A stretch of DNA of 64,000 nt from Acidobacterium sp. S8 (GTDB taxonomy: Bacteria; Acidobacteriota; Terriglobia; Terriglobales; Acidobacteriaceae): assembly GCF_009765985.1 (NCBI RefSeq), contig NZ_LMUM01000034.1, positions 283,508 through 347,507 of the forward strand. The letters run 5' to 3'. A program made the translations under genes and the position numbers. Below, piece by piece: positions 60,475 to 61,857 of this stretch. The notes beneath the pieces are model-generated. The model had not been told where the DNA came from, did not search any database, and was given only the letters and a program-made list of their open reading frames with translations. How positions within the stretch are numbered: position 1 is the stretch's first letter; the number at the start of each line of letters is the position of its first letter.

Positions 60475-60506
60475 GTAAAAAGCCGCCAGGAGATTGCCCG
60501 GCGGCT
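60475..60506 (-). terminator. Intrinsic terminator/attenuator in the leader of the TonB-dependent receptor gene
   Basis: On the minus strand, AGCCGCC / GGCGGCT with a 12-nt loop runs into five T. It lies 27 nt after the stop of the Cys-rich leader ORF and about 140 nt before the receptor start, so read-through is needed to express the receptor. A leader segment spanning Cys codons (60578-60586, GTGGCTGTT) can pair over 9 positions, two of them G-U, with AGCAGCCGC in the 5' arm (60501-60509), a candidate antiterminator. Confidence 0.8.
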
Positions 60507-60533
60507 GCTTTGAAAACGAAGCTCTTATGAAAG

Positions 60534-60614
60534 CTAGTTCGCGTGCATGCACGTGCGGGCGCAACAGTTGCCTGTGCAACAGCCACAACATGCGGTCTGG
60601 TAGACGCGAGTCAT
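60534..60614 (-). CDS. Cysteine-rich leader peptide of the TonB-dependent receptor transcript (26 aa, 7 Cys)
   Basis: A 26-codon ORF, ATG to TAG, whose product starts MTRVYQTA. Seven cysteines lie at positions 9, 10, 12, 13, 17, 18 and 22 (CCGCC, then NCC, then a single Cys near MHAN). The start codon is about 2 nt downstream of the predicted transcription start and has no Shine-Dalgarno, so the message would be leaderless or nearly so. A terminator follows. The layout resembles the cysteine-responsive poly-Cys uORF attenuators described in mycobacteria. A metal-binding micropeptide is a possible alternative. Confidence 0.7.
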   Translation of the reverse strand: MTRVYQTACCGCCTGNCCARTCMHAN

Positions 60615-60622
60615 TGTTTCGT

Positions 60623-60651
60623 AGTGTATGAGGAATGCTCGCAACGGTCAA
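60623..60651 (-). promoter_or_regulatory. Promoter of the receptor leader transcript
   Basis: Minus-strand TTGACC (-35, 60646-60651), a 17-bp spacer, then TACACT (-10, 60623-60628). Transcription should start near 60616, within about 2 nt of the mini-ORF ATG. Its -35 box lies 9 bp from the opposing -35; together GTCAA-N9-TTGAC forms an inverted repeat that could also bind a regulator. Confidence 0.6.
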
Positions 60652-60660
60652 TGGCACAGT

Positions 60661-60692
60661 TTGACAGCGGCCCCGGGATGCGAGATTCTAAA
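60661..60692 (+). promoter_or_regulatory. Promoter of the cysDNH leader transcript
   Basis: Consensus TTGACA at 60661-60666. Possible -10 boxes are GATTCT at 60684-60689 (17-bp spacer) or the overlapping TTCTAA/TCTAAA (19-20 bp); none is strong. Any of them places the transcription start at about 60696-60699, at or a few nucleotides before the ATG of the Cys-rich leader ORF. Confidence 0.5.
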
Positions 60693-60698
60693 TAGCAC

Positions 60699-60794
60699 AT
60701 GGCTTCCACGCTTTGTACCTTCGCCTGTCGAATCGAGTGTCGCTGTTGTTATGACATCAGCGCATGTCGGCGAGGGTGTAAGCACTGTCGATAG
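60699..60794 (+). CDS. Cysteine-rich leader peptide of the cysDNH transcript (31 aa, 8 Cys)
   Basis: A 31-codon ORF, ATG to TAG, whose product starts MASTLCTFACRIECRCC. Eight cysteines lie at positions 6, 10, 14, 16, 17, 23, 27 and 30. All eight codons are TGT, whereas every cysteine codon I checked in cysD and the visible cysH is TGC. No Shine-Dalgarno precedes the ATG, which sits at the predicted transcription start. The stop codon lies in a hairpin (GATAG/CTATC extended by ACTG/CAGT, 60784-60812), and an intrinsic terminator follows. The likely role is sensing charged Cys-tRNA by ribosome pausing; the peptide itself need not act. Confidence 0.75.
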   Translation: MASTLCTFACRIECRCCYDISACRRGCKHCR

Positions 60795-60829
60795 AAATTC
60801 TCACTATCCAGTCAGCTTAGATACACATC

Positions 60830-60864
60830 AACCCACGGCCAGACATTTCTGAGCGTGGGTTTTT
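60830..60864 (+). terminator. Intrinsic terminator/attenuator in the cysDNH leader
   Basis: AACCCACG / CGTGGGTT with an inner CAGA/TCTG pairing, followed by a run of five T (60860-60864). It begins 35 nt after the leader ORF stop and ends about 48 nt before the cysD start codon. No gene other than the mini-ORF precedes it on this strand, so it can only act as a conditional stop for cysDNH. Confidence 0.85.
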
Positions 60865-60912
60865 AATTCCCGCCTCAATTGTCCAAAAGCATACAGGGGA
60901 GCTTCATAGCTC

Positions 60913-61857
60913 ATGGCTACAGCAGTCTACAATCCGCCTCCCGCACCCATAGCTTCACAGGGGCGGCTTACTCATCTTCAGATGCTGGAAGCCGAGAGCA
61001 TTCATATCATTCGTGAGGTCGCATCCGAGTTTCAGAAGCCGGTGATGCTCTATTCCATCGGCAAGGACTCGTCGGTAATGCTGCGCCTCGCGCAAAAGGC
61101 GTTTCACCCCGGGCCAATTCCGTTTCCGCTCCTACATGTCGATACCGGATACAAATTCCGCGAGATGCTGGAGTTTCGCGACAATTACACGCGTGAACTC
61201 GGCTTGAATCTGCTGGTATGGCGGAACGAAGAGGCACTGGCTGGCGGCGCAAATCCCGTAGCTCTGGGAACGCAACGCTGCTGCGGACTTTTGAAAACAC
61301 AAGCACTTCTTGACGGGCTCCGCGCTCACGGTTTCGATGCGGCATTCGGCGGAGCACGTCGTGATGAGGAACGATCACGCGCAAAAGAGCGCATCTTTTC
61401 CTTCCGCGACGGTGCCGGACAGTGGGATCCAAAGAACCAGCGGCCTGAGTTGTGGAATATCTACAACAGTCGCATCGGTCCGGGCGAGAGCATCCGTGTC
61501 TTCCCACTCTCAAACTGGACTGAGCTGGACATATGGCACTACATCCATCTCGAAAACATTCCTATCGTGCCGCTGTATTTTGCGCGGGAGCGTCGCATGC
61601 TGGTGCGTGGCGATAGCCTGATTCCTGTCGAGCAGCCCTTCGTTAAGGGACTGCCGGGCGAAGAGCAGTGGGTACGTTGCCGCTTGCGATCGCTGGGTTG
61701 CAGCCCATGCACGGGAGCTATCCGTTCAGACGCAGACACCGTGCCGAAGATTATTGCCGAGTTGATCTCGTTTCGCTCGTCGGAACGCGCCAACCGTATC
61801 ATCGATCACGATCAGGATGGCTCGATGGAGATTAAGAAGCGCGAGGGCTATTTCTGA
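60913..61857 (+). CDS. cysD: Sulfate adenylyltransferase small subunit
   Basis: 314 residues. ATP-pyrophosphatase-type core with the PP-loop YSIGKDSSVMLRLAQKAF; LLHVDTGYKFREM, QRCCGLLKT and FGGARRDEERSRAKERIFSFRD are CysD signatures. With CysN it makes adenosine 5'-phosphosulfate from sulfate and ATP. AGGGGAG lies about 11 nt before the ATG. It is the first structural gene after the attenuator, and its stop overlaps the cysN start (TGATG). Confidence 0.96.
   Translation: MATAVYNPPPAPIASQGRLTHLQMLEAESIHIIREVASEFQKPVMLYSIGKDSSVMLRLAQKAFHPGPIPFPLLHVDTGYKFREMLEFRDNYTRELGLNLLVWRNEEALAGGANPVALGTQRCCGLLKTQALLDGLRAHGFDAAFGGARRDEERSRAKERIFSFRDGAGQWDPKNQRPELWNIYNSRIGPGESIRVFPLSNWTELDIWHYIHLENIPIVPLYFARERRMLVRGDSLIPVEQPFVKGLPGEEQWVRCRLRSLGCSPCTGAIRSDADTVPKIIAELISFRSSERANRIIDHDQDGSMEIKKREGYF

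Follow-up and report, generated by a model that had tools for sequence, protein, structure and literature searches.

Attenuation by cysteine codons is already reported or predicted in mycobacteria and in Rhodobacterales. Here we analysed a 64,000-nucleotide window of the genome of Acidobacterium sp. S8 (contig NZ_LMUM01000034.1, positions 283,508 to 347,507 of the forward strand), in which two divergent open reading frames (ORFs) rich in cysteine codons, named ORF A and ORF C, lie between an outer-membrane receptor gene and the cysDNH genes. We hold with considerable confidence that they encode the leader peptides of two divergent transcription attenuators, which would be leaderless, ribosome-mediated and responsive to cysteine. 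The original prediction for this stretch, made from its letters, had proposed cysteine attenuation, and the proposal gained support: the leaderless position, the Cys codons, the terminators and the link to sulfur genes all recur in relatives, and a complementary strand follows the Cys codons. Beyond that prediction, the pair was found to belong to a wider set of operons, and the receptor leader was found to include a second ORF ending in Cys codons.

In the parts of the cited texts that were available, mycobacteria have leaderless short ORFs with runs of Cys codons before cysteine-related operons, the speed of the ribosome being the sensor (PMC9094748, PMC9031893 and PMC13236596, citing Canestrari et al. 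2020, Mol Microbiol). The Acidobacteriota leaders resemble them in the predicted leaderless position, the Cys codon runs and the cysteine-related operons, a parallel drawn by the original prediction. The modes of action appear to differ: the mycobacterial ORFs are described as translational, whereas the intrinsic terminators and predicted antiterminator strands of the Acidobacteriota leaders point to transcription. The phylum also differs, and the targets in Acidobacteriota extend to genes for sulfite reductase, peroxiredoxin and sulfonate uptake and to that of an outer-membrane receptor. Cys leader peptides have likewise been predicted for cys operons of Mycobacterium and Propionibacterium and for cbs of Bifidobacterium (PMC1262725); their short ORFs with Cys runs are alike, but the other attenuator elements, including terminators, are reported to be missing there, whereas terminators are frequent here. 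The uORFC-8-2 motif, located upstream of cysS in Rhodobacterales, combines tandem Cys codons with an intrinsic terminator and is predicted to be a ribosome-mediated attenuator (PMC8632094). That motif concerns one gene in one alphaproteobacterial order, has two tandem Cys codons and is not described as leaderless in the available text, whereas the leaders studied here precede several operons and contain up to nine Cys codons. The two window leaders precede cysD and the receptor gene, not cysS, which sets them apart from uORFC-8-2.

The trp- and his-type attenuators of enterobacteria combine a leader peptide, regulatory codons, an antiterminator and a terminator, and their 5' untranslated region (5' UTR) carries a Shine-Dalgarno (SD) sequence, unlike the present leaders, where the start codon is at the predicted 5' end. 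CruR of Bordetella has a Cys motif, responds to copper and controls an operon with a TonB-dependent transporter; it shares with the receptor leader a position upstream of such an operon, and we know of no poly-Cys codon runs or terminator logic in it. No description of Cys attenuators in Acidobacteriota was found in the open literature, subscription papers being mostly outside the search. Within this limit, the combination of a leaderless ORF with an intrinsic terminator before several sulfur operons, and a receptor with two serial Cys ORFs, appears to be new.

Two divergent putative leaders in one spacer

Two divergent units lie in the spacer between the receptor gene (57166-60333, minus strand) and cysD (from 60913, plus strand). 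In each, a promoter-like site is followed by a Cys-rich ORF, whose start is 8-9 nt past the -10 box, and then by an intrinsic terminator. In the ORF listing and the letters, ORF A (60614-60534, minus strand) encodes 26 aa with 7 Cys (MTRVYQTACCGCCTGNCCARTCMHAN) and ORF C (60699-60794, plus strand) encodes 31 aa with 8 Cys (MASTLCTFACRIECRCCYDISACRRGCKHCR), their ATGs being 85 bp apart. These coordinates, lengths, Cys counts and ATG spacing are those of the original prediction, which had also placed a stem-loop with a T run between each ORF and its structural gene; both were found. The terminator after ORF A (60476..60506, minus strand) has a 10-bp stem (60506-60481) followed by a T run. The one before cysD (60831..60868, plus strand) has a stem at 60831-60860, with a 7-bp outer stem and a 16-nt loop, also followed by a T run; this loop is above the limit of the stock terminator scan.

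The promoter of the receptor leader (60623..60651, minus strand), TTGACC-17-TACACT, matches 9 of 12 consensus positions, and its -10 box stops 8 nt short of the ATG. For the cysDNH leader, the promoter (60661..60689, plus strand), TTGACA-17-GATTCT, also matches 9 of 12 positions, with a full -35 box (6/6) and a weak -10 box (3/6) that stops 9 nt short of the ATG; the stock promoter scan demands at least 4/6 per box and therefore does not list it. Transcription typically starts 6-8 nt past the -10 box, which would give a 5' UTR of about 1-3 nt and leave no room for an SD sequence, in agreement with the earlier claim that both ATGs are close to the predicted transcription start.

Two congeneric genomes (L002 and L003) carry a leader near-identical to ORF C, and L004 and L005 carry related ones; the codon comparison of the cysD leaders of the genus showed too few changes to be informative. 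Cys-rich ORFs corresponding to ORF A precede the receptor gene in L148-L153. The -35 boxes of the two promoters are back to back (window 60646-60666), separated by 9 nt here and by 7-9 nt in L002, L003 and L004; judging from this spacing, two polymerases may compete or exclude each other. No known RNA family in Rfam matched the spacer region or the whole window. In the spacer alone, the stock scan listed one promoter-like and two terminator-like sites, compared to 0.6 and 0.7 in shuffled sequences, so that the region by itself proves little and its recurrence carries the proof.

Recurrence upstream of sulfur genes

Leaders were detected from three elements: an ORF of 9-50 codons within 420 nt upstream of the gene, with at least 4 Cys and at least 14% Cys; an abutting promoter with at least 8/12 matches, its -10 box ending 4-12 nt upstream of the start codon; and a terminator at most about 120 nt from the stop codon. 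Among 30 sulfite reductase loci, 24 had the Cys ORF, 19 also the abutting promoter and 15 all three elements. The corresponding numbers were 13, 12 and 9 for the peroxiredoxin loci (n = 27), 7, 6 and 3 for the receptor loci (n = 19), 12, 6 and 4 for the cysD genes of relatives (first cysD set, n = 26), and 13, 8 and 5 for the cysD genes of named Acidobacteriota (n = 33). The source genome is counted within the sulfite reductase, peroxiredoxin, receptor and first cysD sets, and the two cysD sets may share species. The comparison across Acidobacteriota raised by the original prediction, for Cys mini-ORFs with terminators before cysDNH and receptor genes, thus yielded all three elements at 9 of 59 cysD genes (both sets pooled) and at the 3 of 19 receptor loci. 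In contrast, the Cys ORF was present at one of 39 cysD genes of other phyla, and none had the promoter or all three elements. Among 439 control genes of the source genome, 16 had a Cys ORF, none with an abutting promoter, none with all three elements and one with a terminator only.

The gene sets above had been inspected while the detector was being built, and the detector was left unchanged for a later sulfite reductase set (n = 48), in which 38 loci had the Cys ORF, 34 also the promoter and 23 all three elements. This set was drawn from 200 genomes of the class; its members are kin of the first set, many of them from one genus, and it is a replication and no independent sample. Seven of its 57 sulfite reductase places were excluded because they had been inspected before, and L403 and L405, cut by contig ends, were dropped. 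Before the counts, 8 of 80 loci were dropped for little upstream sequence (L064, L072, L080, L095, L131, L100, L103 and L122). L027-L030 and table rows lacking a locus were also left out. Nine of the 28 receptor places were also dropped (L160, L161, L162, L168, L169 and L171-L174); six of these were inspected and showed no leader, some having little upstream sequence.

In the source genome, where the scanned stretches came to 1.31 Mb counting overlaps, of 5.44 Mb, exactly four of 293 distinct Cys-rich ORFs passed with both promoter and terminator, and these stand before the cysDNH, receptor, sulfite reductase and 1-Cys peroxiredoxin genes. The stretches were chosen in part by fixed patterns of Cys codon runs, which miss leaders with scattered Cys codons, and the set may be incomplete; a stricter first scan had missed the peroxiredoxin and sulfite reductase leaders, and the count of four comes from a repeat without the long-ORF filter. 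The sulfite reductase leader, MMIHSSIPVICCGCCPAFAGL, has a GTG start (L318:9598-9663, G000:C9) and a terminator, and precedes a sulfite reductase-siroheme synthase operon. The poly-Cys leader (M)KMNHTAPTCMCLCCCCRCCTMRVCS, whose start is more likely the inner ATG (L059, G000:C17:114354), has promoter and terminator, and its counterparts recur before the 1-Cys peroxiredoxin gene of relatives. LsfA, a 1-Cys peroxiredoxin, is an example among the antioxidant defences of Pseudomonas under sulfur starvation. The induction of such defences by sulfur starvation is described in the available part of a published text (PMC12581299). In the loci around the PF01053 and PALP genes of the source genome, no leader passing all criteria was found.

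For the leaderless position, ORFs were chosen on Cys content alone and the best promoter within 140 nt before the first Cys codon was then taken. The first in-frame start was 4-12 nt past the best -10 box in 36 of 48 leaders and 0-3 nt past it in six more. Shuffled sequences gave 5.9 and 2.8 of 47.7, respectively, with no in-frame start in 23.0; an in-frame start was compulsory for the real ORFs and not for the shuffles, which somewhat favours the real set. On this promoter geometry, the predicted transcription start of these leaders is at the start codon or a few nt from it, suggesting leaderless translation. Their Cys codons are TGT in 174 cases and TGC in 93.

Some leaders head longer operons. 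In G035, a single leader (MFFRTSSVAMCCCCCCSMLARGGTKS) precedes an SsuA-family gene, an ATPase and a permease (SsuABC-like) followed by cysDNH, and in G032 a single leader precedes a siroheme synthase-like gene and cysDN; SsuA was identified by NCBIfam, the permease in a further analysis and the other genes by eye. Of 12 SsuA-type loci, the 11 other than G035 showed no leader within 600 nt directly upstream of the gene, in a search that did not cover operon starts. A second, different divergent double Cys leader was observed in an uncultured member of the Acidobacteriota (L078:5623-5870), between cysD and a TauE/SafE gene. Cys leaders were also seen in another family of the order (L314:9124-9210 in G046; L315:10502-10585 and L346 in G038), and from this the leaders may have a long history in Acidobacteriota. 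In L325 (G001:C229), the sulfite reductase gene reads one internal TAG, which may be an error of a fragmented assembly.

Complementarity, folding and alternative explanations

Each leader ORF likely begins at the 5' end of its mRNA. When Cys-tRNA is scarce, the ribosome would be held at the Cys codons, leaving the RNA behind them free to pair with the 5' arm of the terminator; the terminator would be blocked and RNA polymerase would continue into the receptor gene or cysDNH. With ample cysteine, the ribosome would reach the stop codon, passing or covering the antiterminator strand and allowing the terminator to form. Three structural parts of a ribosome-mediated transcription attenuator were found in these leaders: a Cys-rich short ORF, a terminator before the structural gene and, after the Cys codons, a strand complementary to the 5' arm.

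In the cysDNH leader the predicted antiterminator strand (60764..60778, plus strand) comes after Cys codons 16-17 and has Cys codons 23 and 27 inside it. Its duplex with the terminator 5' arm reaches -14.8 kcal/mol, a value equalled by 4 of 100 shuffles. In nascent-state folding, pairing was 0.60-0.64 with the ribosome stalled at Cys 6-17 and 0.07 with the ribosome at the stop, and 7 of 60 shuffles reached the stalled level. In the receptor leader the strand (60548..60561, minus strand) gives a duplex of -14.3 kcal/mol, with 10/100 shuffles as good; nascent-state pairing was 0.86-0.87 for stalls at Cys 9-13, 0.06-0.08 at Cys 17-18 and 0.00 at the stop codon, and its level was reached by 1/60 shuffles.

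Across the leader set, duplexes between the terminator 5' arm and the RNA past a ribosome held at the third Cys codon were computed for 44 leaders (L263, of 45, had no room). No more than 5/100 shuffles were as good in 18 of the 44, and no more than 10/100 in 32. Cognate pairs gave -15.9 kcal/mol and swapped pairs -13.2, with 0 of 20,000 permutations as good; within classes the figures were 3/5000 for sulfite reductase, 8/5000 for peroxiredoxin and 0/5000 for cysD, and in the later sulfite reductase set 38/20,000 (26 leaders). The leaders are related, and these permutation figures are no independent trials, which lessens their weight for the attenuator reading. With the 5' arm transcribed and the 3' arm still to come, 0.73 of the arm was paired upstream for a stall at the first Cys codon, compared to 0.18 once the ribosome had reached the stop codon. 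For a stall at the second Cys codon, upstream pairing was 0.75 in real leaders compared to 0.52 in shuffles, and at most 6/60 shuffles were as high in 23 of 44 leaders.

Several observations weigh against this mechanism. On stalling, the antiterminator strand wins over the terminator in nascent-state folding but loses in full-length equilibrium folding for most leaders, which keep the terminator at any ribosome position. Terminator probability fell below 0.3 for some stall in 9/44 leaders, two of them being equally low at the stop, and in the two window leaders it was 0.95-0.98 throughout. A switch at equilibrium in the full-length RNA, a candidate that was also considered, was thus left unsupported for most leaders; a kinetic switch would be needed, in which the antiterminator forms before the terminator. 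Late Cys codons (23, 27 and 30 in ORF C; 17, 18 and 22 in ORF A) are near or in the antiterminator strand, and a stall there would block it. The receptor leader duplex of L148 is worse than nearly all shuffles (98/100 as good), and a partial receptor orthologue in G036 (67% identical) has no leader. The full criteria failed at 25 of 48 loci of the later set (13 of its 38 Cys ORFs being without a detected terminator), and at 15/30 sulfite reductase, 18/27 peroxiredoxin and 16/19 receptor loci. No qualifying Cys ORF was found at 14/26 and 20/33 Acidobacteriota cysD genes; two of these absences, in G035 and G032, are explained because cysD is not the first gene of the operon.

The alternative that survives best, though we consider it unlikely, is that the leaderless poly-Cys ORFs act on translation, as reported for mycobacteria in the available texts. 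The receptor leader offers a point in its favour, namely a second ORF, ORF B (MGFRSFQLVFPAGVDRDSLCCC-stop; 60391..60459, minus strand), located between the terminator and the receptor gene. It ends in Cys-Cys-Cys-stop, at a distance of 57 nt from the receptor start. In the -200 to -40 region, a Cys run followed by a stop codon was found in 7/7 close receptor orthologues (own genome included), compared to 6/439 control genes; the repeat-like TGTTGTTG core of ORF B could have other meaning, and its start sites are uncertain. Release of the receptor SD sequence by ORF B was examined by folding in six orthologues, L152 being left out, and gained no support: a ribosome on the Cys codons did not raise the unpaired probability of the SD region in 5/6, the exception being L153, with a modest rise (from 0.37 to 0.60). 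Terminators were found after only 6/12 Cys ORFs of the first cysD set, 8/13 of the named Acidobacteriota cysD set and 4/7 of the receptor set, as translational control would allow, but they followed 19/24 sulfite reductase and 10/13 peroxiredoxin Cys ORFs, and 25/38 in the later set. The complementarity is moreover directed at the terminator arm, which argues for transcription attenuation.

It is far less probable that the Cys-rich peptides are themselves active, either as small metal- or redox-binding proteins or, in the manner of CruR, as sensors acting in the nascent chain. With its Cys-bearing ORF upstream of a TonB-type gene, the receptor leader does resemble the CruR arrangement, where CruR is an upstream ORF in the available text (PMC9426467), and a peroxiredoxin is among the target genes. 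However, the Cys runs are kept while the rest of the peptides differs widely between genes and genera, the stretch after the Cys codons tracks complementarity to each terminator, and the target genes serve the reduction of sulfate and sulfite, siroheme synthesis and the uptake of sulfonates. Chance ORFs in the spacer of divergent genes with ordinary terminators can practically be dismissed: short ORFs are common (16/439 controls have a Cys-rich one), the plus-strand terminator has a long loop and the plus-strand promoter a weak -10 box, and the spacer has few sites above shuffles, but all three elements occurred in 0/439 controls (own genome only) and 0/39 cysD genes of other phyla compared to 15/30 and 23/48 sulfite reductase loci, and the 4/293 passing ORFs of the source genome all precede sulfur or thiol genes or the receptor.

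Target genes and the receptor

The targets named by the original prediction were a TonB receptor and cysDNH. The cysD gene (60913..61857, plus strand) encodes the sulfate adenylyltransferase small subunit (NCBIfam TIGR02039, 443.7 bits, above cut-off), and cysN (61857-63506, plus strand) follows directly, CysN passing its NCBIfam model. The third gene, cysH (plus strand, from 63490), runs off the window end, and in this cut form it matched phosphoadenylylsulfate reductase models with scores under their cut-offs. A TauE/SafE gene comes after cysDNH in the source genome. Judged by CysD, Granulicella sp. dw_53 is the closest named relative (88%, in a comparison that may leave out very near records).

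The receptor gene (57166..60333, minus strand) encodes 1055 aa with CarboxypepD_reg and OMP_b-brl_4 beta-barrel domains (PF25183, 604 bits; PF13620, 76 bits). No name was obtained from NCBIfam models for this protein, and "TonB-dependent receptor-like" is therefore the safe wording. The gene is divergent from cysD also in G001, G003, G020 and G022. Counting the own genome, seven full-length orthologues share 62-100% identity, and every one of them carries a Cys-rich leader ORF, which is kept in G023 and G034, where cysD is on another contig; among the more distant receptors inspected (56% and below), none had one. Downstream of the receptor gene in G023 come an SsuA-family gene (TIGR01728, 202 bits, over cut-off), of the sulfonate-binding type, and a permease-like ORF, and on this basis the receptor probably imports a sulfur source. 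In G036 an ORF that is Rrf2-like by eye (L170:909-1310) precedes the receptor gene without a leader; perhaps a protein regulator replaces the leader there.

Since the source genome has two more such leaders, before the sulfite reductase-siroheme synthase operon and the 1-Cys peroxiredoxin gene, several operons would respond to a single cysteine signal with no regulator protein dedicated to it. A broader picture, which we offer tentatively and with slightly more doubt than belief, is that the sulfur supply of Acidobacteriota is run by a set of leaderless poly-Cys transcription attenuators with the ribosome as regulator, and that the receptor is a sulfur-source importer behind two serial cysteine checkpoints, the ORF with a terminator and then the Cys-Cys-Cys-stop ORF. 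Bacteria with the layout described here are likely to sense cysteine shortage directly through slowed ribosomes, which would derepress their operons. The leaders would unite in Acidobacteriota a Cys-codon sensor, a likely antiterminator/terminator switch and a coherent list of targets. They would also provide an annotation rule for hidden members of a response to sulfur starvation, among them an outer-membrane receptor for which a class of substrate can be guessed. In addition, they would offer a natural test of how classical attenuation could work with leaderless translation.

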